From positions 1-37,949 of the forward strand of contig NZ_ARZY01000044.1 in NCBI RefSeq assembly GCF_000568405.1: a stretch of 37,949 nucleotides of DNA, read 5' to 3'. Position 1 is the stretch's first letter, and every line of letters begins with the position of its first letter. The notes beneath the pieces were generated by a model. The model made no database searches. It was given only the letters and a program-made list of their open reading frames with translations, and had not been told where the DNA came from. Positions 1,184 through 28,890 of this stretch are shown here, one piece after another. Both the position numbers and the translations under genes were made by a program. This DNA is from Catenovulum agarivorans DS-2 (GTDB taxonomy: Bacteria > Pseudomonadota > Gammaproteobacteria > Enterobacterales > Alteromonadaceae).

Positions 1184-1307
1184 ATTTGCATAAATACTAG
1201 AGCAATGATTTAGAGGAAAGTCTCTTTTTCAGGGATGAAAAAGCGAAGCGCACATGGAAGTGTTCACCGCGTCTTTCCGAAAATTATGCACTAGGAGTTA
1301 TGCAAAT
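1184..1307 (+). repeat. Two-hairpin GGA-loop repeat, copy a
   Basis: The outer stem runs from ATTTGCATAA (1184-1193) and CTAG (1197-1200) to CTAG (1291-1294) and TTATGCAAAT (1298-1307), with GGAAAG (1215-1220) pairing with CTTTCC (1273-1278). Inside it, hairpin P2 is CTTTTTC/GAAAAAG around loop AGGGAT (1231-1236), and hairpin P3 is CAC/GTG around loop ATGGAA (1254-1259). The linkers are CGAAGCG and TTCACCGCG. Orientation is given by the strand carrying GGA in the loops. Confidence 0.85.
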
Positions 1308-1323
1308 TTGCACAGGCCGAGTA

Positions 1324-1383
1324 CCTATTTACCTTCGATGTTCTCTGCCAAGAAAACACTAGCGCCGTTTTGCAAATTTGTAC
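1324..1383. repeat. 60-bp direct repeat, copy 1
   Basis: This block and the one at 1527-1586 are the same length and differ at only about eight positions by eye. They share a TTCTCTGCCAAGAAAACAC core and end near CAAATTTG. Repeat copy b lies between them. Origin and function are unknown. Confidence 0.75.
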
Positions 1384-1449
1384 TAACTCCAAGTTACAAA
1401 GCATAAATCGCCCGCGATAGCGTAGCCTAAAGAAGGTGAATGGGGGATG

Positions 1450-1521
1450 CGAACAAAACTTCATAAAATAGGGATATTTTATGCGAGCGCTCCATGGATG
1501 GACTCGCAGCGTTTTTGTTCG
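1450..1521 (+). repeat. Two-hairpin GGA-loop repeat, copy b
   Basis: The outer stem is CGAACAAAA (1450-1458) with TTTTGTTCG (1513-1521). P2 is CATAAAAT/ATTTTATG around AGGGAT (1470-1475). P3 is TCC/GGA around ATGGAT (1494-1499). An AAAACTT box precedes P2 and a CGAGCG linker joins P2 to P3, followed by CGCAGCG. P2 differs from that of copy d by one compensated base pair (A-T to G-C). Confidence 0.85.
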
Positions 1522-1526
1522 AAATA

Positions 1527-1586
1527 CCTGTTTACCTTCTATATTCTCTGCCAAGAAAACACCAGCGCCGCTATACAAATTTGCAC
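1527..1586. repeat. 60-bp direct repeat, copy 2
   Basis: Second copy of the block at 1324-1383, offset by 203 bp. It has the same length and about 87% identity by eye. Confidence 0.75.
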
Positions 1587-1607
1587 CTATCCTTAAAATC
1601 AGCACCT

Positions 1608-1632
1608 AAAAAAAATGCCCTTTCGGGCATTT
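1608..1632 (-). terminator. Intrinsic terminator downstream of thrC
   Basis: Read on the minus strand, an 8-bp stem AAATGCCC/GGGCATTT with a GAAA tetraloop is followed by a run of eight T. It lies about 140 bp after the thrC stop, so the thr mRNA would carry the complement of repeat copy c in its 3' UTR. Confidence 0.85.
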
Positions 1633-1649
1633 CTCAAATCAGTATATAA

Positions 1650-1761
1650 ATAAGTATTAAAACAATAACTTAGAGCAAAATTTCTTTTTCATGGATGAAA
1701 AAGCGAAGCGTACAAGGACGTATTCACAGCGGTTTTGCGTAAGTTATGTTTTCATGCTTAT
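1650..1761 (+). repeat. Two-hairpin GGA-loop repeat, copy c
   Basis: The outer stem pairs 1650-1664 with 1747-1761 (13 of 15 positions plus G-T pairs), TAACTTA (1666-1672) with TAAGTTA (1740-1746), and GCAAAA (1675-1680) with TTTTGC (1733-1738). P2 is CTTTTTC/GAAAAAG around ATGGAT (1691-1696). P3 is TAC/GTA around AAGGAC (1714-1719). The copy ends ten bases from the thrC stop codon. Confidence 0.85.
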
Positions 1762-1771
1762 AACGGCCCCA

Positions 1772-3058
1772 TTAACCTAACTTAGTAAACATATACTCTT
1801 TAAGCTTACCAAAATCAGCGGTTAACGCATCAGACAATACATCTTTATTCGCCACATCAGCCAAAGCTTTTGGCAACGCAACCGGCGTGCCTAAAATGTT
1901 CTCAACTGTTTCTTTAAACTTAGCAGGGTGCGCCGTACCTAAGAAAATACCAATCTCATCATCGGCCAACTGACGCTTCAACGCTTTATAAGCAACAGCA
2001 GCATGCGGCTCACTTAAATAACCTAACTCATTTAACTGTTTAACACCAATTTGGGTGTAATCTTCATCAACACTTTCAGCCGACAACAAAGCTTTATCAA
2101 CAATACCTTGCTCAATCATAGCTTCAATGCGTGGCCAGTTGTTTGGAGAACTAATATCCATAGCATTCGACATAGTCGCAACAGTTTTCTTTGGCTCCCA
2201 CAAACCAGACAACAAATAACGAGGTACAGTGTCGTTAGCATTAGTAGACGCTACAAAACGTTTAATTGGTAAACCCATGGTTTTAGCAATCATAGCGGCA
2301 GCTAGGTTACCAAAGTTACCACTTGGCACAGAAATAACCGCTTTAGCACGATCTTCAGCTGGCAATTGAGCCAATGCTTCAAAGTAATAACATACTTGCG
2401 CCAACAAACGTGCAATGTTAATTGAGTTTGCCGAATTTAAATGCAACTGCTCTCGTACTTCTTTATCGTCGAAAGCTTGTTTAACCAATGCTTGGCAATC
2501 GTCAAACGGGCCATCAACTTCAACCGTTAAGATGTTATCACCTAATGTTGAGAATTGTTTTTCCTGCAATGGGCTCACCATACCTTTAGGGTATAAGATA
2601 ACCACATTAATGTTAGACAAACCATGGAAAGCATGCGCAACTGCCGCACCTGTATCTCCAGAAGTAGCCGTTAAAATAGTAATTGGCTCACCTTCGCCGG
2701 TTAAATGTGCTAAGCATTGAGCCAAGAAACGCGCGCCAAAGTCTTTAAACGCCAATGTTGGGCCATGAAAAAGCTCTAATGAATATACATTGTCTTTAAC
2801 ATGCGCTAACGGCGCAGTAAATTGAAACGCATTAGTTACCAATTTCTCAACCGCCTCACGGCCTAACTCATCACCGATTAATGCATTTAAAATTTCTACA
2901 CTACGCTGTTGAAAAGGCATTGCTAATAATGCATCAACATCAGCTAAAGCTGGGATAGCTTTAGGGAAAAACAAACCTTGGTTACGGCCCAAACCTTGTT
3001 TTACAGCTTGCGAAAAACTAACAACTTCAGTTGCGTCTTTTAAGTTTACTAATTCCAC
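1772..3058 (-). CDS. thrC: Threonine synthase
   Basis: PLP-dependent enzyme of the last threonine step, O-phospho-L-homoserine to L-threonine. At 428 residues it equals the E. coli enzyme in length. The PLP-lysine motif LAFKDFGARF places Schiff-base Lys105. The phosphate-binding SGDTGAAVAHAF motif and the SVPSGNFGNLAA segment are also present. The start is GTG at 3058, directly after the thrB stop (TAAGTG), with AGAGGA upstream inside thrB, so translation is probably coupled. It is the last gene of thrLABC. A terminator follows about 140 bp downstream, beyond repeat copy c. Very secure. Confidence 0.97.
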   Translation of the reverse strand: MELVNLKDATEVVSFSQAVKQGLGRNQGLFFPKAIPALADVDALLAMPFQQRSVEILNALIGDELGREAVEKLVTNAFQFTAPLAHVKDNVYSLELFHGPTLAFKDFGARFLAQCLAHLTGEGEPITILTATSGDTGAAVAHAFHGLSNINVVILYPKGMVSPLQEKQFSTLGDNILTVEVDGPFDDCQALVKQAFDDKEVREQLHLNSANSINIARLLAQVCYYFEALAQLPAEDRAKAVISVPSGNFGNLAAAMIAKTMGLPIKRFVASTNANDTVPRYLLSGLWEPKKTVATMSNAMDISSPNNWPRIEAMIEQGIVDKALLSAESVDEDYTQIGVKQLNELGYLSEPHAAVAYKALKRQLADDEIGIFLGTAHPAKFKETVENILGTPVALPKALADVANKDVLSDALTADFGKLKEYMFTKLG

Positions 3059-4012
3059 TTATACGTCCTCTGAAACCTGGGTGCCTTGGCCATCAACCTG
3101 GCATACATGCGCAAACCCATCTTCATTCTGAATATAGTTATCAACCAACCATTGTTTAATCTCTTCAGCCGCGTCTAACGACTCGACAGCTGCAAACACA
3201 GTTGGCCCAGAACCTGAAATACCGAATGCCAATGCACCTTGCTCTTGCGCAAACGCACGACCAGCATCAAAGTTCTGTAATAAAGATTTACGATAAGGCT
3301 CTGCAATAACATCTTGCATCATTTGTGCTGCAAGTACTTTGTCTTTTCTATGCAAAGCATCAACAAATACGGCAAGTTGTCGACCAAAGTTTATGGTGGT
3401 CGCACGGTCATACTCTTTTGGTAAAATATCGCGCGCAGCGGCCGTAGAAACACTTGCACCCGAATAACAAATTACCCAATACCAATCGTCAAATACAGGT
3501 AACGACAAGCTGATTTGCTCGTCTGATTCAACCATTAACTGCAAACCACCTAAATAACAAGGCGCTACATTGTCATAGTGAATGCTACCACTAATTTGAC
3601 CTTCTAATTTGCCCATTAATCTAAGCAATTGCTCTTGGTTTAACGGATTACCATAAAAACCATTCAGTGCTGCAAGCGCTGCAACAATAGAGCTGGCGGA
3701 TGAGCCTAAGCCACTGCCTATTGGTAAGTTCTTTTCTAGCACCATTTCGACTGGGCGAACGTCAATCCCTAAATCAGCCAGCGCGTCTTTAAAGCCTAAG
3801 AAACAATCATAAACAATGTTTTGTGTTGCATCGGTTGGCAATTTATGCGCGAAGCGGCCTGCGTTAGTTAAACTAAACGACTCTTGTTCTTGAACAACAG
3901 TCACTCTATCACCCAACAAGCTGCCATCAATCGGTTTTAACGCTAAACCTAAAATATCAAAACCTAAGCTAACATTACCGGTAGAAGCTGGTGCATATGC
4001 AGTTACAGACAT
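3059..4012 (-). CDS. thrB: Homoserine kinase
   Basis: GHMP-family kinase that phosphorylates L-homoserine with ATP to O-phosphohomoserine. The N-terminal YAPASTGNVSLGFDILG segment and the glycine-rich ATP loop LPIGSGLGSSASSIVAALA are diagnostic, and a C-terminal GISGSGPTVFA motif closes the active site. I choose the ATG at 4012 (317 residues), which has GGGG six bases upstream and starts MSVTAYAPAS like E. coli ThrB. A longer frame would need a TTG at 4024 with no Shine-Dalgarno. The gap to the thrA stop is 12 bp and thrC follows without a gap, so this is one operon under the thrL attenuator. Confidence 0.96.
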   Translation of the reverse strand: MSVTAYAPASTGNVSLGFDILGLALKPIDGSLLGDRVTVVQEQESFSLTNAGRFAHKLPTDATQNIVYDCFLGFKDALADLGIDVRPVEMVLEKNLPIGSGLGSSASSIVAALAALNGFYGNPLNQEQLLRLMGKLEGQISGSIHYDNVAPCYLGGLQLMVESDEQISLSLPVFDDWYWVICYSGASVSTAAARDILPKEYDRATTINFGRQLAVFVDALHRKDKVLAAQMMQDVIAEPYRKSLLQNFDAGRAFAQEQGALAFGISGSGPTVFAAVESLDAAEEIKQWLVDNYIQNEDGFAHVCQVDGQGTQVSEDV

Positions 4013-4024
4013 AATCAACCCCAA

Positions 4025-6484
4025 TTAAACTTCACGTTTCCACGGCATAGTACGCATTAAGTCTGCGAACACACCTGCGGCTGTTACATCAGCACCCGCA
4101 CCATAACCACGGATCACTAACGGAATTGGTTGATAATACAAGCTGTGAATTGCCAATGCGTTTTCGCCATCTTTAATTGCATATAATGGATGCTCTGGAC
4201 CCACAGCTTGAATACTACAACGACATTTACCGTCTTCGATAATACCGACGTAACGCAACACTTGACCTTTTTCTTTCGCTGATTCCATCATAGCTTTATA
4301 ATGTGCATCCGCTTTTGGCAAGTTTGTCATAAACTCATCAATTGAACCTTCAGCGTCAAAGTCTGCTGGCAATACTGACTCAACGTCAATATCCGACAAT
4401 TCCATTTCCATGCCTGCTTCACGCGCCATAATTAATAACTTACGCGCTACGTCCATCCCACTTAAATCATCACGAGGATCTGGCTCGGTAAAACCATTTT
4501 CGCGTGCAATCGCTGTAGCTTGCGACAAACTCATACCTTCGTCTAACTTGCCGAAGATAAATGACAATGAACCAGATAAAATGCCTTGGAAGCCAATTAA
4601 CTCATCACCAGCGCTGATTAAACTTTGTAAAGTGTCAATAACCGGCAAACCAGCACCTACGTTGGTTTCGTACAAGAAACGGCGATTGGTTTCTGCGGCA
4701 GCTTCGCGTATTTGCTGATAAAACGCCATGCTTGAAGTATTGGCTTTTTTGTTTGGTGTCACGACATGAAAGCCAGCCGCCAAGAATTCTGCATATTGAT
4801 CCGCAATCGATTCGTTACTGGTACAGTCAATAATCACTGGATTAATTAAGTGATTATCTGCCACAAAACGTTTTAAGTTTTCAAGCGTGAACTTGCTTTG
4901 AGCGTTTTCTAACGATTGTTGCCACTCGGTTAAATTTAAGCCTGCGTTGTCAACGGCCATTTTGCGGCTATTGGCAATACCATACACTTGTAAACTAATG
5001 TTACGTGCTTTTAAGATAGGTTGCTGTTTAGTCAGCTGTTGAATTAGCGCTTTACCAACTGTGCCACATCCCACAATAAAGGCATCAATCACATGCAAGT
5101 TAGTAAAGAAGTTCTGATGGGTGACTTTAATCGCATCTTGTGCTTTTTTTCCTTCAATAACAGCCGAGATTGAACGTTCAGAAGAACCTTGGGCAATCGC
5201 AACAATATTGACATTGGTTTGCGAAAGTGACGCAAAAAACTTAGCAGCAATGCCTTTATGCATACGCATGCCGTCACCCACAATAGAAATAACCGATAAG
5301 TGATCACGGAATTCCATTGGCTCTAACAGTTGGTTAGACAATTCTAATTCAAACTCCTGCTCTAACACATCTTGTGCACGGCTTGAATCTGACGAATGAA
5401 TACAAAAACTAATGCTATATTCAGAAGACGATTGGGTAATTAATACAACTGAAATTTTAGCGCGCGAGATTGCATCAAAGATACGGCTGGCCATACCAAC
5501 CATTCCTTTCATACCTGGGCCAGCAACATTAACCATAGTCACATCGTTTAAGGTAGAAATACCTTTAACTACATGGTCTCCGTCAGTACTTTCACTGGTA
5601 ATTAAAGTGCCTGGTGCAGCAGGGTTTAACGTATTACGAATACGACAAGGAATGTGATATTGTGCGATTGGACCAATGGTTTTTGGATGCAAAACTTTAG
5701 CACCAAAGTAAGAAAGCTCCATGGCTTCTTGATATGATAATTGGTCAACCAACTGTGCGTTATACACTTTGTTCGGATCTGCGTTGTATACACCATCAAC
5801 ATCTGTCCAAATTTCACAAACTTCTGCATCAATACAAGCAGCAAGAATAGCGGCGCTATAATCAGAACCATTGCGACCTAATGTAACCAAATCACCCTGT
5901 GCGTTTTGTGCACAAAAACCTGGCATAACCCAGACACCAGTATTTGGTAACGCGGCTTGCGAAAATAATTTACGGCTAGCTTCGATATCCGCTTGAGACT
6001 CTAAAAATCCACCATTAGCGACAATTAATTTTGTCGGGTCAATGACAGTAGCTTGCACATCACTGACACGCACAAGTGCTGCAAAAATTTCAACACTGAT
6101 AAATTCGCCCAAACAAATAATACTTGCATTAACCGCTTCAGGGCATTCACCTAACAAGCCTATGCCTTTTAATCGATTGGTTAAAAACGCAATTTTGTCT
6201 GCTGCAATACCTGCTACATATGCTTTGTCATAATTAGGGTATTCTGCGGCTAAGTCGTTAATAATTGTATGAATAGTGTTTTCTAGTTGCGCCATTAAAT
6301 CTGTGGTAGATAACCCTGCAATTGCAGCATCCACTAAAGCAACTAAATTATTTGTAACACCTTTAGGCGCAGACAAGACCACAGCAGTATTCGCTGTTTG
6401 CTGTTTATCTAACACGATATCGCGAACAACTTTATAGCGCTGTGCATCAGCTAATGAAGAACCACCAAATTTTAATACTTGCAT
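4025..6484 (-). CDS. thrA: Bifunctional aspartokinase I / homoserine dehydrogenase I
   Basis: Catalyses the first and third steps of threonine synthesis: aspartate to aspartyl phosphate, and aspartate semialdehyde to homoserine. It is 819 residues, against 820 in E. coli. The N-terminal kinase opens with the catalytic KFGGSS (residues 5-10) and holds GRNGSDYSAA and the WTDVDGVYNADP loop. The central third carries two ACT regulatory domains (SISFCIHSS and SERSISAVIEG strands), the expected threonine-sensing part. The C-terminal dehydrogenase has a Rossmann motif VGCGTVGKAL and the VTPNKKANT and GLPVIDTL segments. It is first in the thr operon behind the thrL attenuator, starting at ATG 6484. 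Very secure. Confidence 0.98.
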   Translation of the reverse strand: MQVLKFGGSSLADAQRYKVVRDIVLDKQQTANTAVVLSAPKGVTNNLVALVDAAIAGLSTTDLMAQLENTIHTIINDLAAEYPNYDKAYVAGIAADKIAFLTNRLKGIGLLGECPEAVNASIICLGEFISVEIFAALVRVSDVQATVIDPTKLIVANGGFLESQADIEASRKLFSQAALPNTGVWVMPGFCAQNAQGDLVTLGRNGSDYSAAILAACIDAEVCEIWTDVDGVYNADPNKVYNAQLVDQLSYQEAMELSYFGAKVLHPKTIGPIAQYHIPCRIRNTLNPAAPGTLITSESTDGDHVVKGISTLNDVTMVNVAGPGMKGMVGMASRIFDAISRAKISVVLITQSSSEYSISFCIHSSDSSRAQDVLEQEFELELSNQLLEPMEFRDHLSVISIVGDGMRMHKGIAAKFFASLSQTNVNIVAIAQGSSERSISAVIEGKKAQDAIKVTHQNFFTNLHVIDAFIVGCGTVGKALIQQLTKQQPILKARNISLQVYGIANSRKMAVDNAGLNLTEWQQSLENAQSKFTLENLKRFVADNHLINPVIIDCTSNESIADQYAEFLAAGFHVVTPNKKANTSSMAFYQQIREAAAETNRRFLYETNVGAGLPVIDTLQSLISAGDELIGFQGILSGSLSFIFGKLDEGMSLSQATAIARENGFTEPDPRDDLSGMDVARKLLIMAREAGMEMELSDIDVESVLPADFDAEGSIDEFMTNLPKADAHYKAMMESAKEKGQVLRYVGIIEDGKCRCSIQAVGPEHPLYAIKDGENALAIHSLYYQPIPLVIRGYGAGADVTAAGVFADLMRTMPWKREV

Positions 6485-6513
6485 GTATTTATTTACCCTA
6501 TCTTTTCAGACAA

Positions 6514-6546
6514 AAAAGCCCGTGACCTTTTGGGTCACGGGCTTTT
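6514..6546 (-). terminator. Threonine-operon attenuator terminator
   Basis: A perfect 14-bp stem (AAAAGCCCGTGACC with GGTCACGGGCTTTT) and a 5-base loop lies between the thrL stop and thrA. On the minus strand it ends in a T-run, as expected for the terminator form of a ribosome-mediated attenuator. Confidence 0.92.
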
Positions 6547-6589
6547 GCTTTGATTCGATTTCTTTAGCGCAACAGCCAGCGACCACTCC

Positions 6590-6646
6590 TTATACAAAGG
6601 TAATGGTTGTAATGACGGTAATGGTGTTAATTGCGCTTTTTTTCAT
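6590..6646 (-). CDS. thrL: thr operon leader peptide
   Basis: An 18-codon frame encodes MKKSAINTITVITTITFV and was too short for standard gene calling. Eleven of its residues are Thr or Ile, the same regulatory codons as in the E. coli ThrL peptide, and the run sits just before the attenuator terminator and thrA. When charged tRNA-Thr or tRNA-Ile is short the ribosome should stall in the run and prevent the terminator. The Shine-Dalgarno is weak: the nearest AAGG is about 14 bases upstream. Assignment rests on codon content plus position and is strong. Confidence 0.9.
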   Translation of the reverse strand: MKKSAINTITVITTITFV

Positions 6647-6720
6647 GGGGCGAAACTGTGCCTTATCTGCTGCTGTCTGTCAATCAATATTTGACCGATT
6701 GAACACGAATCAAACAATTT

Positions 6721-7662
6721 TTATGCTTGATATATGGTAACTTGGTTACGCCCTTCTCTTTTCGACTGATACAAGGCTAAATCTGCACGTGTCACCATGT
6801 CTTCAAAGCGAGTAAAGCGACTATCGCATTCACAAATACCGACACTCATGGTTGCACTAATTGTGTGTTTTTCATACTGCATTTTAAGTAACGAAAATTG
6901 CCGACGAATGCGTTCTGCTAACTCGGCAGCACCTTGTGCATTGGTATTAGGTAAAATAATACCAAATTCTTCTCCACCATACCGCCCCAACAAATCGCCT
7001 TTGCGTAATAGATTTTCAACCAAATTTGCCGCTTCAACTAAAACTAGATCACCCGCTTGATGCCCATATTGGTCATTTATCAGCTTAAATTTATCTAAAT
7101 CAAACATGATTAAAGACAAAGCATGATCGTGTCTTTGTGCTGTTGAAAATTCAACTCGAAACCTTTCTTCCCAATATCGCCGATTAGATACTTTGGTTAA
7201 ACCGTCGGTGCGACTGACATGTTCCAGCTCTGTTAATGTATCTTTTAATTTTTCTTGATAGAAAAATACATCTGTCACATCGTCAACAATAATACCGACC
7301 TTATCAGGCTCAGTTGTACCTTTGTCACATATAGGAATAAAAGTAATGTTTTGCGCCATATACTCACTACTGGTGGTCACAGGCCGAGCATGACGCATCT
7401 TAAAAACAAACTGGCGTTGCTCCCACGAGCTAAAAGCGGGGGTATTTAACATGAACACGCTTTGAATTTTACGTTGCAACCAACGTTTCGGCGCATCAGG
7501 AAAGATATCAAAAAGGTTTTTGCCAATGACTTCACTCGCTGATAATAAGCTATGTGATTCCATAAAACGGTTGAAATAAACTAAGCGGCACTCTTCATCG
7601 ACAACCAACACACCAGAGTTGATTCTTTCAATTAACAGAGACTGAACCGCTGCAACATCCAA
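6721..7662 (-). CDS. PAS-GGDEF diguanylate cyclase
   Basis: A 313-residue soluble protein predicted to make cyclic di-GMP from two GTP. Residues about 5-125 form a PAS-like sensor (INSGVLVVDEECRLVYFN; VIGKNLFDIFP). The GGDEF domain starts near 148 and carries an active GGEEF signature at 229-233. The inhibitory I-site RKGD at 220-223 is intact with exact five-residue spacing, so product inhibition is likely. The start is a TTG three bases after the upstream stop; it is needed to keep the PAS domain whole, and weak initiation suggests coupling. It is last in an operon with a receiver and a CheC-like protein, which probably supply its signal. Confidence 0.9.
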   Translation of the reverse strand: MDVAAVQSLLIERINSGVLVVDEECRLVYFNRFMESHSLLSASEVIGKNLFDIFPDAPKRWLQRKIQSVFMLNTPAFSSWEQRQFVFKMRHARPVTTSSEYMAQNITFIPICDKGTTEPDKVGIIVDDVTDVFFYQEKLKDTLTELEHVSRTDGLTKVSNRRYWEERFRVEFSTAQRHDHALSLIMFDLDKFKLINDQYGHQAGDLVLVEAANLVENLLRKGDLLGRYGGEEFGIILPNTNAQGAAELAERIRRQFSLLKMQYEKHTISATMSVGICECDSRFTRFEDMVTRADLALYQSKREGRNQVTIYQA

Positions 7663-7664
7663 AA

Positions 7665-8279
7665 TTAAAACTCGTCTAATATTTGGTCTAATACTTTCTG
7701 AATATTTTTAATTGCTTCACCAGGGATAAGTAAAACCATATCGCAATTAAAAGAAAAATCGACTACTTGGTAACTAATGTCTACTTTTAAGGCGAGGTCC
7801 CAATTGAAAGACAATTGTTGCAAGTGATGCTCAAGTGGCGTTTCCATTGACGATACAACACGCGGGGCACTGTAGGCCAATTGGTTATCAATTTGTTCCG
7901 CTAAACCATTCAAGAAAGTGGTCGTCAAAATAGAGCTAATATCGGTCAATTGCTCAACTTCTGATACATCGTCAGGCTCGTATCCGAGTATCTCGGCAAT
8001 GCCGTGGGCATCATGTGATTTGTAAATTAATAAAGACTCACCCAAAATGCCTTTTTCACCATAAAAACCTTGGCTAACAAGTGACACACCCTCTTGTGCA
8101 TAGGTTTCGGCAAAGCGCTCTGGCAGTACTTCTGAATCAATCAGTTCAATGTAAGGGACTTGCAAATGAACAAAGGTTTGTAAATAACGTGCTAACTTGT
8201 CGCTCGCTTGGCCCATTGCTACATTAATGAGCTCCTGTAAACAATCTCTTTGTTCTTCTGTTAACGTTATTTCGTTCAT
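7665..8279 (-). CDS. CheC/CheX-like chemotaxis phosphatase family protein
   Basis: A 204-residue soluble protein resembling the CheC/CheX/FliY family, which dephosphorylates CheY~P. The first half has the family helix QELINVAMGQASDKLARYL with the E-x-x-N pair (Glu16, Asn19) known to attack CheY~P. The matching second helix reads TDISSILTTTFLNGLAEQI, with Asp and Ser in place of Glu and Asn, so only one centre looks catalytic. It overlaps the upstream receiver gene by ATGA and is followed at once by the cyclase gene. The obvious inferred partner is the receiver encoded just before it. Family call is good; enzymatic activity is inferred. Confidence 0.75.
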   Translation of the reverse strand: MNEITLTEEQRDCLQELINVAMGQASDKLARYLQTFVHLQVPYIELIDSEVLPERFAETYAQEGVSLVSQGFYGEKGILGESLLIYKSHDAHGIAEILGYEPDDVSEVEQLTDISSILTTTFLNGLAEQIDNQLAYSAPRVVSSMETPLEHHLQQLSFNWDLALKVDISYQVVDFSFNCDMVLLIPGEAIKNIQKVLDQILDEF

Positions 8280-8641: not shown

Positions 8642-8675
8642 TAAATACTTCTCTTTTAATACTTGTTATTGTTGT

Positions 8676-20456: not shown

Positions 20457-20478
20457 GGTTATCTATATAGAGTCGGTA

Positions 20479-23106
20479 TTAACCTGTGTTGCGTAAACCT
20501 GTTGCAACACCTGCGATACTCACCATTAACGCTCGCTCTAAGTTATAACTTAACTCTTCGTCACCTGCTTGGCGCGCACGTTTCAGTAGTTCAACTTGTA
20601 ATAAGTGCAGAGGTTCAAGATAGTTTGCACGAATCTCCATCGACTCTTTACCTGCAGGCTCATTTTGCATAACCTCTTGTTGGCCGAGCAATTCAAGTAA
20701 CAATACCTGCGCTTCTTTAAGCTCTGTTCGCAGGTTTTCACCAAAATATTTAAGCGGCTCTGGCACCAATTGGTCGTCATAGATAGCTGCCATTTGTGGG
20801 TTTGCTTTCATAAAGACCATTTCCAACATAGATAGGCGTGACGCAAAGAAAGGCCATTGTTGCATCATTTCTTTGATTAATGGTTCATGACCTGCCTCTA
20901 GCGAGGTTTTAAACGCCTTCATAACCCCTAACCATGCAGGTAATACCAATCTGTTTTGTGCCCATGCGAAAATCCATGGAATTGCACGTAAACTTTCAAC
21001 CCCACCATTTGGTTTACGTTTTGATGGACGGCTACCTAAAGGCAGTTTCGATAGCTCAAGCTCTGGTGTTGCGCTTCTGAAATAAGGTACAAAGTTTTCA
21101 TCATGGCGCACCACATCACGATAATTGTCACGCGCATGCCCTGCCATAAATTCAATCACTTCACGCCATTTTTGCTGCGGCGCTGGCGGTGGGATCATTA
21201 ATGCTTCTAAAATCGCACTGGTATATAAACTAAAGCTACGATTTGCTAAAGCTTCGGTACCAAACTTATAACGAATGGTTTCACCTTGTTCAGTCACACG
21301 TAAACCACCTAAACAGCTACCAGGTGGTTGTGAGAATATAGCTTGGCGCGCCGGTAAACCACCACGACCAATGGTACCACCACGTCCGTGGAACAAGGTT
21401 AGTTTCACTTGATGCTGTTCAGCTAATGCCACAAGCGCTTCTTGTGACTGATATTGCGCCCACCCAGCTGCCAATGCACCCGCATCTTTCGCAGAATCAG
21501 AATAACCAATCATCACATACTGATGGTTGCGGATAAATCCTCTATACCACTCAATGTCTAACAATGCCGCCATACTGTCGTATGCATTGTTTAAATCGTC
21601 CAACGTTTCAAACAATGGCGCAACCGGCATCGGCCATTTAATACCCGCTTCTTGCAATAATAAATGAACTTCTAAAACATCAGACGGAGCTTGTGCCATT
21701 GAAATAATATAAATACCTAGCGCTTGCTCATTTTGTTGCGCAATCACTTTGCAGGTATCCAACACCTCTTGGACTTCAGCCGAAGGTTGCCACACTCGTG
21801 GGATGAGTGGACGTTTAGAGGCTAGCTCACGTAATAAAAATGCTTGTTTATCTTGCTCTGTCCAATTTGAGTAATCACCCAAACCTAGGTAACGAGTAAT
21901 TTCGCTAAATACTTGATCATGTCGGTCTGAGTCTTGGCGAATATCGAGTTTCAACAAGTGAATACCAAAACAGTGTGCGCGGCGAATTGTGTCTAATAAT
22001 AAACCGTTGGCAATTGCTTTCATTCCAACAGAGTTTAATGACTGAAAACAGGCTTCAAGTGGCTTAATTAGCTCGTCTTGATGATTAATCCAATTATCTG
22101 CTTGATATTGCTCACCAGCCAGAAATGCTTCAATTCCTTCAACTGTATTGGCTAGTTTATTTTTAAGTTGCAATAAGGTTGCCCGATATGGTTCACGTTC
22201 GTCTGCACCAACTTGCTGGCGCAACTCTTCGGAACATTGGCCCATAGATAACTCAACAAATAGTTTGCTGATGTCATCTAAGAACAATACCGCGGCTCGC
22301 TTTCTTGCCAACAATAAAACTTGTTCAGTCACTTTAGAAGTGACAAATGGGTTGCCATCTCTATCACCGCCCATCCATGATGCAAAACGTACTGGCACAG
22401 CGTTTGTTGGTAAGTTTAAACCGAAATTATCTGCCAGTTTTTCGTCTAGAGTGCGAATAAAGTCTGGTACGGCTTGCCACAAAGAGTTTTCAATAACAGA
22501 AAAGCCCCATTGAGCTTCATCAACAGGTGTCGGTCGAGCTGCACGAATTTCATCTGTGTGCCAAGCTTGGCTAATTAATTCGGCAATGCGCTGTTCTACT
22601 TTTTTACGTTGCGTGTCAGTTAAGTCGCTTTCATGTAATTGAGATAAACATTCTGCAAGGCGTGAATACTTATAAATTAACGTACGGCGAGTTACTTCGG
22701 TTGGATGTGCGGTTAACACTAACTCAATCGACAAGTGCTCAACGGCTTGGGCCAACGTCATGTTAGTTTGATCGGTGTGTTTTATCTTAGCTAAGAATTC
22801 ATCTACCGGGTCTTGCTCTGTAACATTTGCTACCGTGTGCTCCTGCTCAGCTAAATTGGCTAGATTCAAAAACTGCGAAAATGCTCTGCCGATTGTCAAT
22901 AACGATTCATCTGGCATTTGCGCAAACAGTTTCTGCAAACTCTCAGTTGCAGTTTTGTCCCCTGCATAAGATTTACGACCTTGTTTACGAACAGTCTCAA
23001 TGCGATCCAACCATTCATCTCCAAGATGCTGTTGAATAATTTGACCGAGTTCGGTGCCTAAATAACGGACTGTTTCTAACAAAGAATCATCAATGCCTTT
23101 TTGCAT
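20479..23106 (-). CDS. ppc: Phosphoenolpyruvate carboxylase
   Basis: Carboxylates phosphoenolpyruvate to oxaloacetate, replenishing the TCA cycle; oxaloacetate also feeds aspartate and the threonine pathway encoded at the left of this window. About 875 residues (E. coli 883). Motifs: VLTAHPTEVTRRT with catalytic His134, ASWMGGDRDGNP, the glycine loop FHGRGGTIGRGGLPA, GYSDSAKDAG, and the C-terminal GLRNTG tetrapeptide that binds allosteric effectors. I choose the ATG at 23106, with GAGG six bases upstream; an in-frame ATG lies at 23118. Monocistronic, with its own terminator. Confidence 0.97.
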   Translation of the reverse strand: MQKGIDDSLLETVRYLGTELGQIIQQHLGDEWLDRIETVRKQGRKSYAGDKTATESLQKLFAQMPDESLLTIGRAFSQFLNLANLAEQEHTVANVTEQDPVDEFLAKIKHTDQTNMTLAQAVEHLSIELVLTAHPTEVTRRTLIYKYSRLAECLSQLHESDLTDTQRKKVEQRIAELISQAWHTDEIRAARPTPVDEAQWGFSVIENSLWQAVPDFIRTLDEKLADNFGLNLPTNAVPVRFASWMGGDRDGNPFVTSKVTEQVLLLARKRAAVLFLDDISKLFVELSMGQCSEELRQQVGADEREPYRATLLQLKNKLANTVEGIEAFLAGEQYQADNWINHQDELIKPLEACFQSLNSVGMKAIANGLLLDTIRRAHCFGIHLLKLDIRQDSDRHDQVFSEITRYLGLGDYSNWTEQDKQAFLLRELASKRPLIPRVWQPSAEVQEVLDTCKVIAQQNEQALGIYIISMAQAPSDVLEVHLLLQEAGIKWPMPVAPLFETLDDLNNAYDSMAALLDIEWYRGFIRNHQYVMIGYSDSAKDAGALAAGWAQYQSQEALVALAEQHQVKLTLFHGRGGTIGRGGLPARQAIFSQPPGSCLGGLRVTEQGETIRYKFGTEALANRSFSLYTSAILEALMIPPPAPQQKWREVIEFMAGHARDNYRDVVRHDENFVPYFRSATPELELSKLPLGSRPSKRKPNGGVESLRAIPWIFAWAQNRLVLPAWLGVMKAFKTSLEAGHEPLIKEMMQQWPFFASRLSMLEMVFMKANPQMAAIYDDQLVPEPLKYFGENLRTELKEAQVLLLELLGQQEVMQNEPAGKESMEIRANYLEPLHLLQVELLKRARQAGDEELSYNLERALMVSIAGVATGLRNTG

Positions 23107-23315
23107 AGTAAACCTCATTTTTTAATTCGAGTGCGCATAAATTAGCATATTGGTAAGACCAAATCACCATGAATCTACTAAGGATATAAAATTGTCATGA
23201 ATTTGTCATTGACCAAATAATAGAAACAGTGGCATATTGATTATGCCTAGCAGCTAAATCGGCCCAATGGCCGACTGCTTAGAACAAAGCAATTAACTAT
23301 AAATTAGGATAAATT

Positions 23316-23411
23316 TTGAACTTTACCGCCTTTTACAACCGCTTACCTATGCCAGCAGTCTTCTGTCGCCTGCTGCCGGTGCGTATGCGTGTGTACGAAT
23401 GCGGAAATTAA
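23316..23411 (+). CDS. Candidate leader peptide upstream of EamA
   Basis: A 31-codon frame begins at TTG 23316, with AGGAT upstream; a 20-codon version begins at ATG 23349. It ends at TAA 23409-23411. It contains five arginines, two cysteines and the end VYECGN. Its last codons cover the antiterminator arm GAATGCGG, so a ribosome at the end of the frame would block that arm and favour the terminator. No run of one amino acid is as clear as in thrL. It could be coincidental; translation is unproven. Confidence 0.4.
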   Translation: MNFTAFYNRLPMPAVFCRLLPVRMRVYECGN

Positions 23412-23433
23412 CAAGTTCAAAATAGTCATTGTT

Positions 23434-23466
23434 AAAAGCCGCATTCAGTTACTGATGCGGCTTTTT
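23434..23466 (+). terminator. Leader terminator before the EamA gene
   Basis: AAAAGCCGCAT (23434-23444) pairs with ATGCGGCTTTT (23455-23465), an 11-bp stem extended by CAG/CTG inside, followed by a T. It lies 45 bp before the EamA start codon, so it must act as a conditional terminator for that gene. Confidence 0.8.
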
Positions 23467-23510
23467 AGTTTGCATTGGTAGCTTGTCTTTTTTATTTTAG
23501 GGATAACAAG

Positions 23511-24422
23511 ATGCAAACATCATCAAAAGTAACATTCAGCTATTTAGCCGTTGTTTTAATCTGGTCTACAACACCTCTAGGGATTGTCTGGAGCAGTGAG
23601 TCTATGCACCCAGTATTGGCCGTGTTACTGCGTATGTGTATAGCATCAAGCATTGGCTTATTGTTACTACCATTGCTGCGCATTCGCTTACCTCTGCATA
23701 AAACTGCGTTAAAGCTCTACGCTTATTCTGTGATTGGCGTTTATGGTGGCATGATGTTCAGCTACATGGCAGCTTGGTATATTCCATCTGGGCTTATTTC
23801 TGTCGTGTTTGGTTTAGCACCTATAATCGCCGGTATCGCTGGACAAAAAATATTGGGCGATGCTGCTTTTTCCAAAGTTCGCTGGTTTGCGTTGTGTATC
23901 TGCTTGTTAGGTTTAGCATTTATATTTAATGATGGATTTAATCAAGGAGAGAACACGTTAATCGGTATTGTCATTGTACTGATTGCTGTAACGCTATTTA
24001 GTTTAAGCGGGGTAATGGTTAAAACTATCGCAATTCATATCCACCCAATGGCCACTACAGTGGGCGCGGTTACTTTATCTGTGCCGTTATACGTTATTTC
24101 TTGGTATTTAATGGATGGAGAAGTAGATGCCAGTCAATGGAGTGCCCGCTCAATTGGAGCTATTGTTTATCTAGGTTTATTTGGCTCGCTATTCGGCTTT
24201 ATTTGTTATTTCTTTATTTTACAAAAACTTGCTGTATCAACTGTATCGTTAGTGACTTTGATAACCCCTGTGATTGCACTTATATTGGGTAACCAATTAA
24301 ATGGTGAAGTATTAACACGCGATTTATTACTTGGCACTGCCGCTATTTTATGTGGACTAGCTTTGTACTTGTGGGGAGATAATTTAGTGAATAAATTTGT
24401 GCGCAGGCAAGAAGCGCTTTGA
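23511..24422 (+). CDS. EamA/DMT-family transporter
   Basis: A 303-residue inner-membrane protein with ten hydrophobic helices in two five-helix EamA repeats, the fold of drug/metabolite exporters such as RhtA and YdcZ relatives. The first repeat opens FSYLAVVLIWSTTPLGIVWS and includes PSGLISVVFGLAPIIAGI; the second includes LSGVMVKTIA and VSLVTLITPVIALILGNQLNGE. The substrate cannot be read from sequence; amino acids or related metabolites are common in the family. The ATG at 23511 is preceded by AGGGA; a TTG at 23475 would overlap the terminator region. Expression is probably controlled by the leader at 23314-23466. Confidence 0.92.
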   Translation: MQTSSKVTFSYLAVVLIWSTTPLGIVWSSESMHPVLAVLLRMCIASSIGLLLLPLLRIRLPLHKTALKLYAYSVIGVYGGMMFSYMAAWYIPSGLISVVFGLAPIIAGIAGQKILGDAAFSKVRWFALCICLLGLAFIFNDGFNQGENTLIGIVIVLIAVTLFSLSGVMVKTIAIHIHPMATTVGAVTLSVPLYVISWYLMDGEVDASQWSARSIGAIVYLGLFGSLFGFICYFFILQKLAVSTVSLVTLITPVIALILGNQLNGEVLTRDLLLGTAAILCGLALYLWGDNLVNKFVRRQEAL

Positions 24423-24459
24423 GGTGACGACTGGGACTAGTTAGCGGTGCGAAATCGGC

Positions 24460-24563
24460 CTGAGCTTGGATGTCTAACACAGACACGCGGTGAACCCATC
24501 CGTGGGCGCTCGAGACAAATCATCCAAGATTTGTACGGTCTGTTTATAGAATTCCAAGCCCAG
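24460..24563 (-). repeat. Two-hairpin GGA-loop repeat, copy h
   Basis: On the minus strand the outer stem pairs 24542-24563 with 24460-24486 (shared core GCTTGGA plus ACAGAC). P2 is ACAAATC/GATTTGT around TTGGAT (24522-24527). P3 is CCC/GGG around ACGGAT (24498-24503). The GAGCG linker and a CCGCG box are present. This is the most diverged copy in sequence, yet every paired element is kept. Confidence 0.82.
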
Positions 24564-24719
24564 TCCTCACTTATAATCCGACTGCGAGCCCAACTGAACA
24601 TTTGTGCCACCATATCTATAGCGCTAAACAAGCCGTGCAATCAAGCACACCCGAATGCTTATATCTGACGTTGATATTGCTAATCCACGGACAACGCAAC
24701 ACTACCCTATTCGGAATAG

Positions 24720-25265
24720 TCACAACTGATAAATAAACCAAGGAGAAACAATACTTGGATACTGCGGGTACTGAGTTAAGTCAAATCTATTCGGCAAAAT
24801 AACATCGCCAACAGTGGGTAAGGTTTGATTGGTCAGATCTAATGTAAAATCAACTAAACTAGATTGAGTCGGAAACTCATATCTAAATACAATAGCGCTA
24901 TCAAACGCTCTGACACGCAAATGTACAATGCGGCTATGCGCGTTCTCTTTTAAAACCACAAATAATTCAGCATAATTTTTGCGCTGTTGAATATGCTCGT
25001 GATCAAGTGACTGCACTTTTAAAATTTCAAAATGCTGCATGCTCTTATGTTCAACAAAGTTCAATTGAAAGTTATCCAGCTGCCAGACAAATTGCATGTC
25101 GTGTTGAATACTGAACGACAACTTAGCATCATCTTGGCTAGTAATTTTAAACTCAAACTGTTTGTTAGGTGACTGCACAACAATACTTTGGTTTTGTTGA
25201 CTACAACCAAATAACCCCAGCAGAAATAATAAAATGTTGAACAGAAGAAAACGCATTTTCAACAC
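24720..25265 (-). CDS. Lipoprotein with partial GH97 N-terminal domain
   Basis: A 181-residue protein with a signal peptide ending in a lipobox, LFGC (Cys21). The rest resembles the N-terminal beta-sandwich of family-97 glycoside hydrolases: VVQSPNKQFEFKI matches the usual opening (SPDGK-type), and RIVHLRVRAFDSAIVFRYEFP matches the strand pair R-x-F-x-D-G-x-x-F-R-Y-E-F-P. GH97 enzymes continue with another part of this domain and a catalytic barrel, both absent here. The frame stops at FIYQL, and the next 300 bp contain a repeat and no barrel fragment. Either a remnant of a GH97 gene or a small standalone carbohydrate-binding lipoprotein. Confidence 0.65.
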   Translation of the reverse strand: MLKMRFLLFNILLFLLGLFGCSQQNQSIVVQSPNKQFEFKITSQDDAKLSFSIQHDMQFVWQLDNFQLNFVEHKSMQHFEILKVQSLDHEHIQQRKNYAELFVVLKENAHSRIVHLRVRAFDSAIVFRYEFPTQSSLVDFTLDLTNQTLPTVGDVILPNRFDLTQYPQYPSIVSPWFIYQL

Positions 25266-25354
25266 AAATCACTTATAAAAATGACAAGTATATAAACAAC
25301 GCAGTTACCAATTGGTTAAGATAGATAAAGATACATGAAGAAATTTTAGGCAGA

Positions 25355-25390
25355 AAAAAAGCGAGTCAATTTGCATCAACTCGCTTTTTT
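25355..25390 (-). terminator. Terminator of pnp
   Basis: AAAAAAGCGAGT pairs with ACTCGCTTTTTT (12 bp) around a 12-base loop, T-rich on the minus strand, 24 bases past the pnp stop codon. Confidence 0.88.
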
Positions 25391-25413
25391 AAATTTAGTA
25401 GCTAACGGCTAAA

Positions 25414-27531
25414 TTACCCAGCGCTATCGCTTGCTTCTGGTGCCGCAGGCTTAGGCTCAGCACAAGCTTTCATGCTTAAACGCACACGACCTTGGCGGTC
25501 GATTTCTAATACTTTAACTTTAGTCACTTGACCTTGAGATAAGTAATCAGAAACGTTGTTAACTCGCTCTTCAGCAATTTGAGAAATGTGCACTAGGCCT
25601 TCTTTGCCTGGTAAAATTTCAACAAATGCACCGAAATCTACGATGCGAGTAACTTTACCGTCGTAAATCGTACCAACTTCAACTTCAGCAGTTAAAGACT
25701 TGATACGGTCAATTGCAGCATCTGCTTTATCTTTACCAGTTGCAGCAATTTTTACTGTACCATCATCTTCAATCTCGATAGTTGTACCCGTTTCTTCGGT
25801 TAATTGACGGATAGTTGCACCGCCTTTACCGATAACATCACGGATTTTATCAGGGCTGATTTTGATAGTGTAAATACGAGGAGCAAATTCAGAAACTTCA
25901 GTTCTGTGGCCGCCGATAGCTTGGTCCATTACACCTAAAATGTGTAAACGAGCCGCTTTCGCTTGGTTCAATGCAATTTGCATGATCTCTTGAGTGATAC
26001 CTTCAATTTTAATGTCCATCTGTAGCGCAGTGATACCTTCGGTCGTACCCGCTACTTTAAAGTCCATATCACCTAAGTGGTCTTCGTCACCTAAAATGTC
26101 AGACAGAACAACAAAGTTATCGCCTTCTTTTACTAAGCCCATTGCGATACCCGCAACAGAAGCTTTAATTGGTACACCCGCGTCCATTAACGCAAGAGAA
26201 GAACCACAAACAGAAGCCATAGAGCTTGAACCGTTTGATTCTGTGATTTCAGAAACGATACGTACTGTGTACGGGAATTCTTCCAAAGATGGCATAACAG
26301 CAGCTACACCACGCTTAGCCAAACGGCCATGACCAATTTCACGACGCTTAGGTGCACCAACCATACCCGTTTCACCAACACAGTATGGAGGGAAATTATA
26401 GTGGAATAAGAAGTTGTCAGTCTTGTCGCCTGTTAAGTCATCGAATCTTTGCGCATCTTTTTCTGTACCTAGAGTTGCAACAACGATTGCTTGAGTTTCA
26501 CCACGGGTAAATAGTGAAGAACCATGAGTACGAGGTAAAATACCAGTACGAACGTCAAGTGCACGAACCATAGTTGGATCACGACCATCAATGCGAGGCT
26601 CGCCAGCAATAATGCGGCTACGTACCACTTTCTTTTCAACAGAGCCTAAGAATTCACCAACTAATTTTTGGTCAACTTCTTCGTCTTCTTCAACAATTTT
26701 GGCTAAAGCAGACTCTTTTACTGCAGTCGCAGCATCTTTACGCTCTACTTTATCTGCGATTTGGTATGCTTGAGTGAAACCATCTTTTGATAACGCTTCT
26801 ACTTTTTCATATAAAGCACTATCGATCGCAGGTGCGACCCAAGTTGAAGGAGCTGGGTTTACAGCTTCAACAAACTGGTTGATGTTTTGAATAACCGTTT
26901 GCATTTGCTCATGGCCATACATGACAGCACCTAACATGGTGTCTTCACTTAAAATTGAAGCTTCAGACTCAACCATAAGGACTGCATTCTCAGTACCAGC
27001 AACCACTAAATCTAATTCTGAATCAGCCATTTCACTGCTCAGAGGGTTCAGCATGTATTGACCATCTTTGTAACCAACACGCGCTGCACCAATTGGACCT
27101 TGGAAAGGAATACCAGCAATTGATAACGCCGCAGAAACACCAATCATAGCAACGATATCAGGTGCAATCTCAGGGTTTACCGACATTACAGTTGCAACAA
27201 CTTGAACTTCGTTGGTGTATTCTTTCGGGAATAATGGGCGGATAGGACGGTCAATTAATCGAGCCGTTAACGTTTCACCTTCAGACGGCTTACCTTCACG
27301 TTTAAAGAAGCCACCAGGAATTTTACCCGCAGCGTAAGTTTTCTCTAAATAGTTAACCGTTAATGGGAAAAAATCTCTTACTTCGTCATCTTTTTTTGCT
27401 ACGACACTTACCAATACTGAAGTATCGTCCATACTCACCATAACAGCGGCTGATGCTTGTCTTGCAACAACACCTGTTTCCAAAGTGACCTGGTGTTGGC
27501 CAAACTGGAATGAAGTTGTAATTGGAGTCAC
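25414..27531 (-). CDS. pnp: Polyribonucleotide nucleotidyltransferase (PNPase)
   Basis: 3'-to-5' phosphorolytic exoribonuclease of the RNA degradosome. 705 residues, normal length. Two RNase PH-like halves are visible (N-terminal [30 protein letters not shown]; second half FNFPPYC-like [14 protein letters not shown] and [12 protein letters not shown] with the active-site block [19 protein letters not shown]). They are followed by a KH domain (about 555-612, [11 protein letters not shown]) and an S1 domain (about 620-690, [20 protein letters not shown]). The start is GTG at 27531 with AAGGA upstream. It follows rpsO, as in most gammaproteobacteria. Confidence 0.97.
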
Positions 27532-27708
27532 AATAATGTTTCCTTTGTTCTTACTTTAATCTTTAATCGCTTATTTTCGCGACTAATTATACGTAACTAT
27601 TTTGCAAATAAGTAGAGCTAAATCGATATAAATTGCGAGTACCACAGCCGTATAAGCCAAGTTCAATTTATAATGATTTAACTCTATATTTATAAACAAA
27701 ACCGAAAA

Positions 27709-27734
27709 AAAAAGGGCCTTTTTAGGCCCTTTTT
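27709..27734 (-). terminator. Terminator between rpsO and pnp
   Basis: AAAAAGGGCCT pairs with AGGCCCTTTTT (11 bp, 4-base loop), and on the minus strand a long T-run follows. It should separate much rpsO mRNA from pnp. Confidence 0.88.
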
Positions 27735-27754
27735 CACAATAAATTCATCTAGGA

Positions 27755-28024
27755 TTAACGACGTAAACCTAGACGCTTGATTAATGAAGTGTAACGCTCT
27801 ACATCTTTACGCTTCAAATAATCTAATAAGCTACGACGAGAGTTAACCATACGGATCAAACCACGACGAGAGTGGTGATCTTTTTTGTGGTCAGAGAAGT
27901 GACCTTGTAATTTGTTAATTCTGTGCGTTAATAAAGCAACTTGTACTTCAGGTGAACCAGTGTCGCCTTCTTTTGTTGCATATTCAGCAACAACTTTTGC
28001 TTTTTCTTCAAGAGTTAGTGACAT
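27755..28024 (-). CDS. rpsO: 30S ribosomal protein S15
   Basis: An 89-residue small-subunit protein that binds the 16S rRNA central domain early in assembly. The sequence [38 protein letters not shown] and [21 protein letters not shown] is highly typical. The ATG at 28024 has GGAG six bases upstream and gives the standard start; an in-frame codon at 28036 adds four residues without support. A good promoter lies at 28089-28116 and a terminator follows. Unusually, 920 bp separate it from truB. Confidence 0.97.
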
Positions 28025-28088
28025 AATCATCTCCAAAATTCGGGTGCGCCGATCACTAAGCCAGCGAACCTAATAAAATGAACCGCGG

Positions 28089-28116
28089 ATTCTACGCGAA
28101 TTGAGTAAAAGATCAA
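28089..28116 (-). promoter_or_regulatory. Promoter of rpsO
   Basis: On the minus strand TTGATC (28111-28116) and TAGAAT (28089-28094) are 16 bp apart, about 65 bp before the rpsO start. It matches sigma70 elements well. Confidence 0.6.
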
Positions 28117-28178
28117 CTCAAAAAATCGCTAGTAGGTTTAGTGAACTGAGCCCACTGTAAGCATAATTTCCGAATAAT

Positions 28179-28219
28179 GCACTCAACAGGCAGCGCTTTA
28201 ACCCCCGAGCTCACAAGCC
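28179..28219. repeat. Shared 41-bp block beside repeat d
   Basis: This block and 28509-28549 have equal length and match at 35 of 41 positions, including a GCAGCGCTTTAACC core and CCGAGCTCA. The offset of 330 bp equals the offset between repeats d and f, so they are two units of one tandem duplication. Confidence 0.7.
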
Positions 28220-28220
28220 C

Positions 28221-28319
28221 ACTCGATGCATGATTTTCTAAAAGCGCTGTTCGCCAGTCCCTGGCCGCTCACATAAGATATCCCTATCTTATGAAGTTTT
28301 AGAAAACCAGCATTCGAGT
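28221..28319 (-). repeat. Two-hairpin GGA-loop repeat, copy d
   Basis: On the minus strand the outer stem pairs 28297-28319 with 28221-28243 (TTTTCTAAAA core and ACTCGA tip). P2 is CATAAGAT/ATCTTATG around AGGGAT (28280-28285). P3 is GCC/GGC around AGGGACT (28256-28262), the only seven-base loop. The AAAACTT box, the GAGCG linker and ACAGCG are conserved. Confidence 0.82.
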
Positions 28320-28387
28320 ACGCTTTTATCGAGCACATTTATTGCTGCTAGAATACGATGTATCAATGAGCAACAATATAAAAATCA

Positions 28388-28501
28388 GGAAAGTGCTAGA
28401 GCATTAACTTAGAGCAAAATCTCTTTTTCAGGGATGAAAAAGCGAAGCGTACATGGAAGTATTTACAGCGTTTTTGCGATAGTTATGCTCTAGTGATTTC
28501 C
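28388..28501 (+). repeat. Two-hairpin GGA-loop repeat, copy e
   Basis: The outer stem runs from GGAAA (28388-28392) and CTAGAGCAT (28396-28404) to ATGCTCTAG (28485-28493) and TTTCC (28497-28501), with GCAAAA pairing TTTTGC inside. P2 is CTTTTTC/GAAAAAG around AGGGAT (28430-28435). P3 is TAC/GTA around ATGGAA (28453-28458). The CTAG-to-CTAG unit is 98 bp, as in copy a. Confidence 0.87.
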
Positions 28502-28508
28502 GCATATA

Positions 28509-28549
28509 GCACTGTACTAGCAGCGCTTTAACCTCCGAGCTCAAAAGCC
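28509..28549. repeat. Shared 41-bp block beside repeat f
   Basis: Second copy of the block at 28179-28219, 330 bp further on, with 35 of 41 positions identical. Confidence 0.7.
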
Positions 28550-28653
28550 AACTGCAAGCATAATTTCCCAAAAACGCTGTACACCGTCCATGGTCGCTCC
28601 CAAACGTCGTCCCAGACGTTTGAAGTTTTGGTAAATCAGCATTCCAGTCGGCT
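28546..28653 (-). repeat. Two-hairpin GGA-loop repeat, copy f
   Basis: Two 29-base outer arms (28625-28653 and 28546-28574) pair without gaps at about 22 positions. P2 is CAAACGTC/GACGTTTG around TGGGAC (28609-28614). P3 is ACC/GGT around ATGGAC (28586-28591). The AAAACTT box, the GAGCG linker and ACAGCG are present. Confidence 0.84.
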
Positions 28654-28798
28654 CAGTCATACTTGGGCATCGCTAAATGTAGCGGTACTGAAAGTTTGGT
28701 GAATTGTCGCCAGAGGAAATCAGCTACTGATTGAGGAAAATTGAAAAAGAAAGAGTAACCAAAGAGTTTATAGCAACTATATGGTAGGAAAGGTGGTG

Positions 28799-28890
28799 GT
28801 GATTGTTTTTCGCAAAACTTCCAATCGGTAGGGATACCGTTTGAGAGCGGGCCATGGATGGCCTTGCAGCGATTTTGCGAAAAATATCAC
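28799..28890 (+). repeat. Two-hairpin GGA-loop repeat, copy g
   Basis: The outer stem pairs GTGAT (28799-28803) with ATCAC (28886-28890) and TTTTTCGCAAAA (28806-28817) with TTTTGCGAAAAA (28873-28884). P2 has CGGT/ACCG plus CAA/TTG around AGGGAT (28830-28835). P3 is GGCC/GGCC around ATGGAT (28854-28859). The AAAACTT box, the GAGCG linker and GCAGCG are present. Confidence 0.87.

Follow-up and report, generated by a model that had tools for sequence, protein, structure and literature searches.

A dispersed, probably YPAL-type repeat family of Catenovulum agarivorans whose two hairpin tips resemble CsrA sites

What kind of element is a repeat that presents the same GGA loop twice: DNA that multiplies, RNA that binds a regulator, or both? 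The question is raised by a stretch of 37,949 nt of Catenovulum agarivorans DS-2 (contig NZ_ARZY01000044.1, assembly GCF_000568405.1), called the window throughout, in which an earlier note had described eight dispersed repeat copies and had proposed that their transcripts act as decoys or targets of CsrA. Sites of the CsrA/RsmE proteins are ANGGAN hexaloops on a stem closed by a C-G pair, and one dimer can bridge two of them. The reading preferred here, to which we give a probability of about 0.58, is that of a mobile, non-autonomous repeat which, once read through into RNA, would offer CsrA a module of two sites.

Eight copies and their shared fold

A descriptor scripted to the earlier description (a hairpin with a GGA loop, a G.GCG linker, a second GGA hairpin and a.GCG tail) recovers all eight copies in a scan of the window, one scan hitting copy b twice, and matched only once in total over 40 dinucleotide-shuffled windows. 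The list of copies and loops is thereby borne out, as is their occurrence in both orientations, five on the plus and three on the minus strand. With a covariance model built from 33 copies of the same genome (R1), the eight score 66.9 to 97.3 bits, being themselves part of the training set. They are given below with the loops of the first hairpin (P2) and the second (P3).

Copy a, core 1203..1295, plus strand, outer inverted repeat extending to 1184-1307: loops AGGGAT / ATGGAA, 93.2 bits
Copy b, core 1441..1535, plus strand: loops AGGGAT / ATGGAT, 74.7 bits
Copy c, core 1663..1755, plus strand: loops ATGGAT / AAGGAC, 95.3 bits; 24.2 bits against TwoAYGGAY, under the cut-off of 43
Copy h, core 24462..24555, minus strand: loops TTGGAT / ACGGAT, 67.4 bits
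Copy d, core 28222..28312, minus strand: loops AGGGAT / AGGGACT, 66.9 bits
Copy e, core 28402..28494, plus strand: loops AGGGAT / ATGGAA, 97.3 bits; opposite strand 34.6 bits against Ysr224 (E 5e-6, cut-off 70)
Copy f, core 28552..28641, minus strand: loops TGGGAC / ATGGAC, 73.2 bits
Copy g, core 28800..28895, plus strand: loops AGGGAT / ATGGAT, 86.0 bits

All 16 loops hold GGA, 15 are hexaloops and 14 read ANGGA, the exceptions being P2 of f (TGGGAC) and P2 of h (TTGGAT). For the second loop of copy d the descriptor gives GGGAC, taking one more pair into the stem than the AGGGACT noted earlier.

The family is built as an outer stem that leads into a three-way junction bearing two hairpins, a fold that is supported by covariation. 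Folding energies are clearly lower than those of shuffled sequences for six of the eight copies (z -2.7 to -5.2) and weakly so for f and h (both -1.5). The lowest-energy structure contains both GGA hairpins in five copies (a, b, d, g and h); the second hairpin is shifted in c and e, the module is absent in f, and most of these structures put an extra A-U pair across the loop. Because single-sequence folds contain both hairpins in only five of eight cases, the case for a shared fold rests on covariation. Among the 33 copies of the own genome 97.0 % of stem cells are paired and two-sided changes number 103, compared with 26.7 in shuffles; among 53 distinct copies from relatives the figures are 93.7 % and 280 against 83.3, an excess that disappears when the pairing partners are slid. 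The outer stem, in which the descriptor demanded no pairing while demanding it in both hairpins, is paired in 99.5 % (own genome) and 99.0 % (relatives) of cells. The common fold claimed earlier, an outer stem with two hairpins, thus holds through covariation and not through single folds.

The loop pattern and its likeness to CsrA sites

Four alignments with 101, 150, 31 and 107 matches gave 89 + 137 + 31 + 98 = 355 distinct copies, rows with long inserts or truncations and 18 repeats being left out; of 162 matches, 150 had entered the second alignment, and pooling without removal of repeats across the sets yields 358 rows. GGA is present in 348 of the 355 first loops (loop 2) and in 354 of the second (loop 3), and the loop-closing pair is C-G in 322 and 328 copies, respectively. 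Hexaloops read A325 N G334 G332 A331 N in loop 2 (n=335) and A340 N G340 G341 A341 N in loop 3 (n=341), so that variation is confined to position 2 (G, T, A, rarely C) and position 6, which leans to T. Elsewhere in the unit, the near-fixed letters are the AGC of the linker, the GCG that follows hairpin 3 and a T preceding hairpin 2. In the alignment of 98 copies the search pattern itself had dictated loop 3 of most members; with this whole set excluded, loop 3 holds GGA in 257 of 257 copies. The earlier note had tied its proposal to loops better conserved than the stems, and this is what the 355 copies display: near-fixed loops on stems that vary with compensation.

As motifs, the two hairpin tips resemble near-optimal CsrA sites (C-ANGGAN-G), a likeness that the loop counts support. 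It is mainly this agreement between the free and fixed loop positions and those of CsrA sites that favours CsrA over an unknown enzyme reading the hairpins as DNA. Kissing between loops was considered as another reason for their conservation and set aside, since positions 2 and 6 vary. The own genome has a single csrA match, whose protein carries L4 and R44, which we take to be residues important in CsrA. Thus the part of the earlier proposal that concerns the motif, ANGGAN on C-G and twice per unit, is now better founded, whereas a role as RNA would have to be reconciled with the absence of any strand preference relative to genes, the rarity of G-U pairs and the fact that Ysr224 is the TCC strand.

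A mobile family in the genome, in relatives and in the literature

In the 4.57 Mb genome R1 finds 97 matches at E<=1 (150 of 1590 candidates scored), 49 on the plus and 48 on the minus strand; BLASTN with copy e gave 49 hits. Some matches sit close to where a contig ends, at about 300 bases or less (e.g., on C63, C22, C1, C37, C24, C16, C66, C68 and C38); copies may thus have caused breaks in the assembly, and the true number may exceed 97. Beyond the core of about 93 nt the flanks seem, by eye, to be conserved over some 35 nt on the 5' side and 40 nt on the 3' side. Grouping is common: 63 of the 97 copies have a neighbour at less than 300 nt. The 39 neighbour pairs at this distance comprise eight tandem ones, spaced by 166-168 nt in four cases and by 181, 211, 222 and 238 nt in the remaining four, and inverted ones in which the GGA strands face each other with their 5' ends 23 times and point the other way eight times. 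On contig C8 of the own genome, 14 copies occupy 7.6 kb (67692-75272) in three dense groups of 6, 5 and 3.

Dense groups of C8, locus L039, 3693-4604, 8043-8781 and 10837-11273: start-to-start spacing inside groups 149-181 nt

Three of the genome matches, 66-81 nt longer than the core (L040 1560-1733, plus; L041 1696-1854, minus; L042 1778-1948, minus), have in their first hairpin a common insert with additional stretches that resemble GGA hairpins, among them GTC-ATGGAT-GAC and TTC-AAGGAT-GAA. This longer variant may hold extra sites.

Matches occur in 24 of 60 related genomes, the own one included, and their number is highly uneven among seven other species of the genus (0, 8, 3, at least 71, 2, 13 and 9). 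In these surveys counts per genome are lower bounds, with at most 71 candidates per genome scored in the set of 60, 11 in the class sample and 10 in the phylum sample. With R2, a model built from the copies of relatives, 75 of 369 gammaproteobacterial genomes match, again including the own one. A sample of 398 genomes of the phylum, of unstated make-up by class, gave 29 matching genomes, all 29 within the class. At least 119 stretches contain the exact second-hairpin pattern, in Halomonas, Marinobacter, Microbulbifer, Saccharospirillum, Thiofilum, Rheinheimera, Zobellella, Pectobacterium and others. A copy at 7847 of one Zobellella contig (L315) shares that contig with pieces of a group II intron at 3473-5226 (RF02001, RF01998 and RF00029). 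One match is terminal on a contig of 10.7 kb whose title names a metagenome bin of Nitratireductor (L289, NZ_CAJXGF010000145.1). Nitratireductor is an alphaproteobacterium, the sole one named among the matches listed, and a mis-binned contig or transfer are possible explanations. As for carriers, copy e as single DNA query had no match among 72,556 plasmid and 50,697 phage records, a search that more distant members could escape, and plasmid or phage cargo was rejected on this ground; the exact second-hairpin pattern does occur in one viral contig, with 24.8 bits under R2.

One site gives a view of expansion. Copies d to g fill the interval between rpsO and truB, the identity of which was confirmed at both ends, and in all six same-genus relatives with both sides on one contig this interval is 721-824 bp shorter, as judged from coordinates rather than at base resolution. 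Since it is shorter in the relatives, the site has expanded in the lineage of the window, by insertion or local multiplication. In a seventh relative, the one with at least 71 matches (G004), the rpsO side and the truB side are on different contigs, C37 and C13, through an assembly break or a rearrangement. An S15 leader RNA (RF00114, 72.4 bits) lies at 27968-28072 on the minus strand, at the rpsO end of the repeat-filled interval. We infer that the family moves by transposition. The Y1 transposase family PF01797, the only transposase family searched, had no match at E<=0.001 in the own genome, which is listed as 100 % complete; the same search matched in five of 14 control genomes.

An element of this kind has been described before. 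YPAL, as it is described, is a mobile repeat of about 168 bp with variable target duplications of 3-26 bp, present in Yersinia and Erwinia carotovora (PMC2229807). The Y. pestis RU-2/YPAL letters printed in Table 1b of PMC2759123 contain one descriptor match with loops AAGGAT / ATGGAT. They share with the repeats of the window an outer stem, a hairpin with a GGA hexaloop, a linker ending in AGCC, a TAC-ATGGAT-GTA hairpin and TTTACGGCG, and both families have many dispersed copies and, at the one site compared here, filled as opposed to shorter sites between related genomes. The differences are the 97 matches in one marine genome and the spread through a class, compared with the two groups named for YPAL in the text available, stems of unrelated sequence, and inverted as well as tandem groups. 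On sequence likeness, these repeats are very probably YPAL-type elements.

The Rfam entry Ysr224 (RF02770) represents the other strand of this element. In Pectobacterium, two copies score 73.3 and 72.2 bits against it on the TCC strand, above the cut-off of 70, and of 13 loci of relatives compared with Rfam four match Ysr224 and none matches TwoAYGGAY at E<=0.01; the window copies, with 34.6 (copy e), 22.4 and 15.9 bits, fall short of the gathering score. The analysis thus connects the YPAL repeat to this entry. In what could be seen of the literature YPAL and Ysr224 are treated apart, and the available text of PMC9029176 contains both Ysr224 and CsrA without a link between them. Our literature search, outside which much subscription literature falls, found neither a paper joining YPAL with CsrA nor an earlier report of a repeat with two CsrA loops.

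TwoAYGGAY (RF01731) was listed as a probable RNA of the human gut, gamma-Proteobacteria and Clostridiales (PMC2864571), and CsrA binding was proposed for it in 2014 (PMC4333381). Like the repeats it has two AYGGAY hairpins on one outer stem, but its second hairpin forms a long stem that lacks the bulge present here, and membership was rejected, the best match in the own genome reaching 27.5 bits and copy c the value listed above. Decoys of the CsrB/RsmZ type likewise carry ANGGAN loops on short, C-G-closed stems; they have many sites per unit instead of two, and the repeats number some 97 dispersed copies. Hence neither part of the picture is new in kind: YPAL is already published, and so is the CsrA idea for a look-alike.

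Weighing the explanations

The preferred reading combines two levels. As DNA, the repeats would be YPAL/RU-2-type non-autonomous mobile elements that spread and multiply. As RNA, read-through from neighbouring promoters would yield GGA-strand transcripts in which the two tips are close enough for one CsrA dimer, so that these RNAs would bind CsrA and serve as scattered decoys, or would tie the host transcript to CsrA. Binding of the GGA-strand RNA by CsrA is somewhat more probable than its absence; transcription of that strand, the binding itself and an effect on the cell are what we infer. The outer stem does lean to the GGA strand, its mismatches on that strand being G-U rather than A-C by 28 to 4.

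Several points weigh against the preferred reading. The models were trained on GGA-bearing copies, and the conservation of the loops is thus partly ascertained. In a test based on a crude caller of open reading frames (ORFs), 95 of 101 matches were examined; for the 82 outside ORFs the GGA strand showed no preference for the direction of the flanking genes, running with both in 20 cases and opposite to both in 22; 19 copies lie between convergent genes and eight between divergent ones, with 13 undetermined. On this basis CsrA targets acting in cis as 5' leaders were rejected. Most close neighbours (31 of 39) are inverted. G-U pairs make up 42 of 5231 stem cells (0.8 %) and A-C 14, counted as cells and not as independent events, and are thus rare compared with 15 of 302 cells (5.0 %) in 14 tRNAs, a comparison that extends to the G-U share only, because the tRNA finder demands pairs. 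In the two hairpins G-U and A-C stand at 14 to 10, with no strand asymmetry. Further pair types are no more numerous than in shuffles, of which 124 of 500 reach the observed number for the own copies and 441 of 500 for those of relatives. The Yersinia small RNA (sRNA) catalogued as Ysr224 is the TCC strand. Finally, the presence of csrA is too common to serve as a discriminating test: it was found in 59 of 60 relatives and, among repeat-bearing genomes of the class, in 69 of the 74 others, and its co-occurrence with the repeats says little since the gene is nearly universal. The five matching genomes without a csrA match are 75, 88, 67, 98 and 85 % complete; the one at 98 % (G254), with nine repeat matches, counts against a strict need for CsrA.

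Much of this would be expected of an element that acts at the level of DNA only, its hairpins being single-stranded DNA or cruciform signals for a transposase or recombinase and the match to CsrA coincidental. The equal orientations, the inverted neighbours, the scarcity of G-U, the indifference to flanking transcription and the patchy expansion among relatives, with the enlarged rpsO-truB site, all agree with such an element, and hairpins kept as near-perfect palindromes suit upkeep at the DNA level. We nevertheless consider this explanation unlikely, though it is the strongest of the alternatives: it leaves to chance a pattern of fixed and free positions, A-N-G-G-A-N on C-G, that occurs twice and is that of CsrA sites, the excess of G-U over A-C in the outer stem speaks for the GGA strand as RNA, and PF01797, as the one transposase family searched, had no match in the genome. 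Moreover, upkeep as DNA and action of the GGA strand as RNA can be compatible in an element that moves as the one and acts as the other. The functional product might instead be the TCC strand, an sRNA like Ysr224 to which the GGA strand is the mere complement, with loops kept for loop-loop or sRNA-target pairing. Ysr224 matches do lie on that strand, and Ysr224 is listed as temperature-responsive in Y. pseudotuberculosis, with copies of differing expression profiles described in Y. ruckeri (PMC12112432). It is an improbable explanation all the same: varying positions 2 and 6 are disallowed for loop-loop pairing without matching partners, and the mismatch asymmetry of the outer stem favours the other strand. 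The least probable proposal, with hardly any weight, is that the repeats are REP/BIME elements, of the GTAG or the CGTC family, moved by a RAYT. Dispersed copies and frequent inverted neighbours of unlike members recall REP dimers, but the three-way-junction unit, with its core of about 93 nt, is far longer than 20-40 bp, the invariant boxes are AGC and GCG rather than GTAG or CGTC, and a Y1 transposase was not found.

A more general form of the preferred reading is tentative and somewhat doubtful, namely that a gammaproteobacterial mobile family multiplies such modules and that transposition builds a dispersed sponge, or a tag that makes transcripts dependent on CsrA, of a size that varies between sister species; YPAL and the strand opposite Ysr224 would then be the members of this family described first. 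If CsrA binds, YPAL, described in Yersinia in 2006, gains a molecular partner; sister species, with copy numbers between 0 and about 100, would supply a natural series of doses in which CsrA is titrated; and sRNAs known from transcriptomes, Ysr224 for one, would have to be re-read as single strands of a repeat that carries CsrA sites. Without such binding, the invariance of A-N-G-G-A-N loops in mobile DNA would point to an unknown hairpin-reading enzyme.

Some smaller features of the window can be added. An ORF over copy b (1291-1605, minus strand) has no relative in PDB. Beside the same copy lies a 62-nt direct repeat (87 %) at 1322-1383 and 1525-1586, the second arm falling in the 3' flank of copy b and the first possibly belonging, as an arm, to a decayed copy situated between a and b. 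A 51-nt inverted repeat joins 359-409 to 25383-25433, with 71 % complementarity and CAAGCGATAGCGC at one end.

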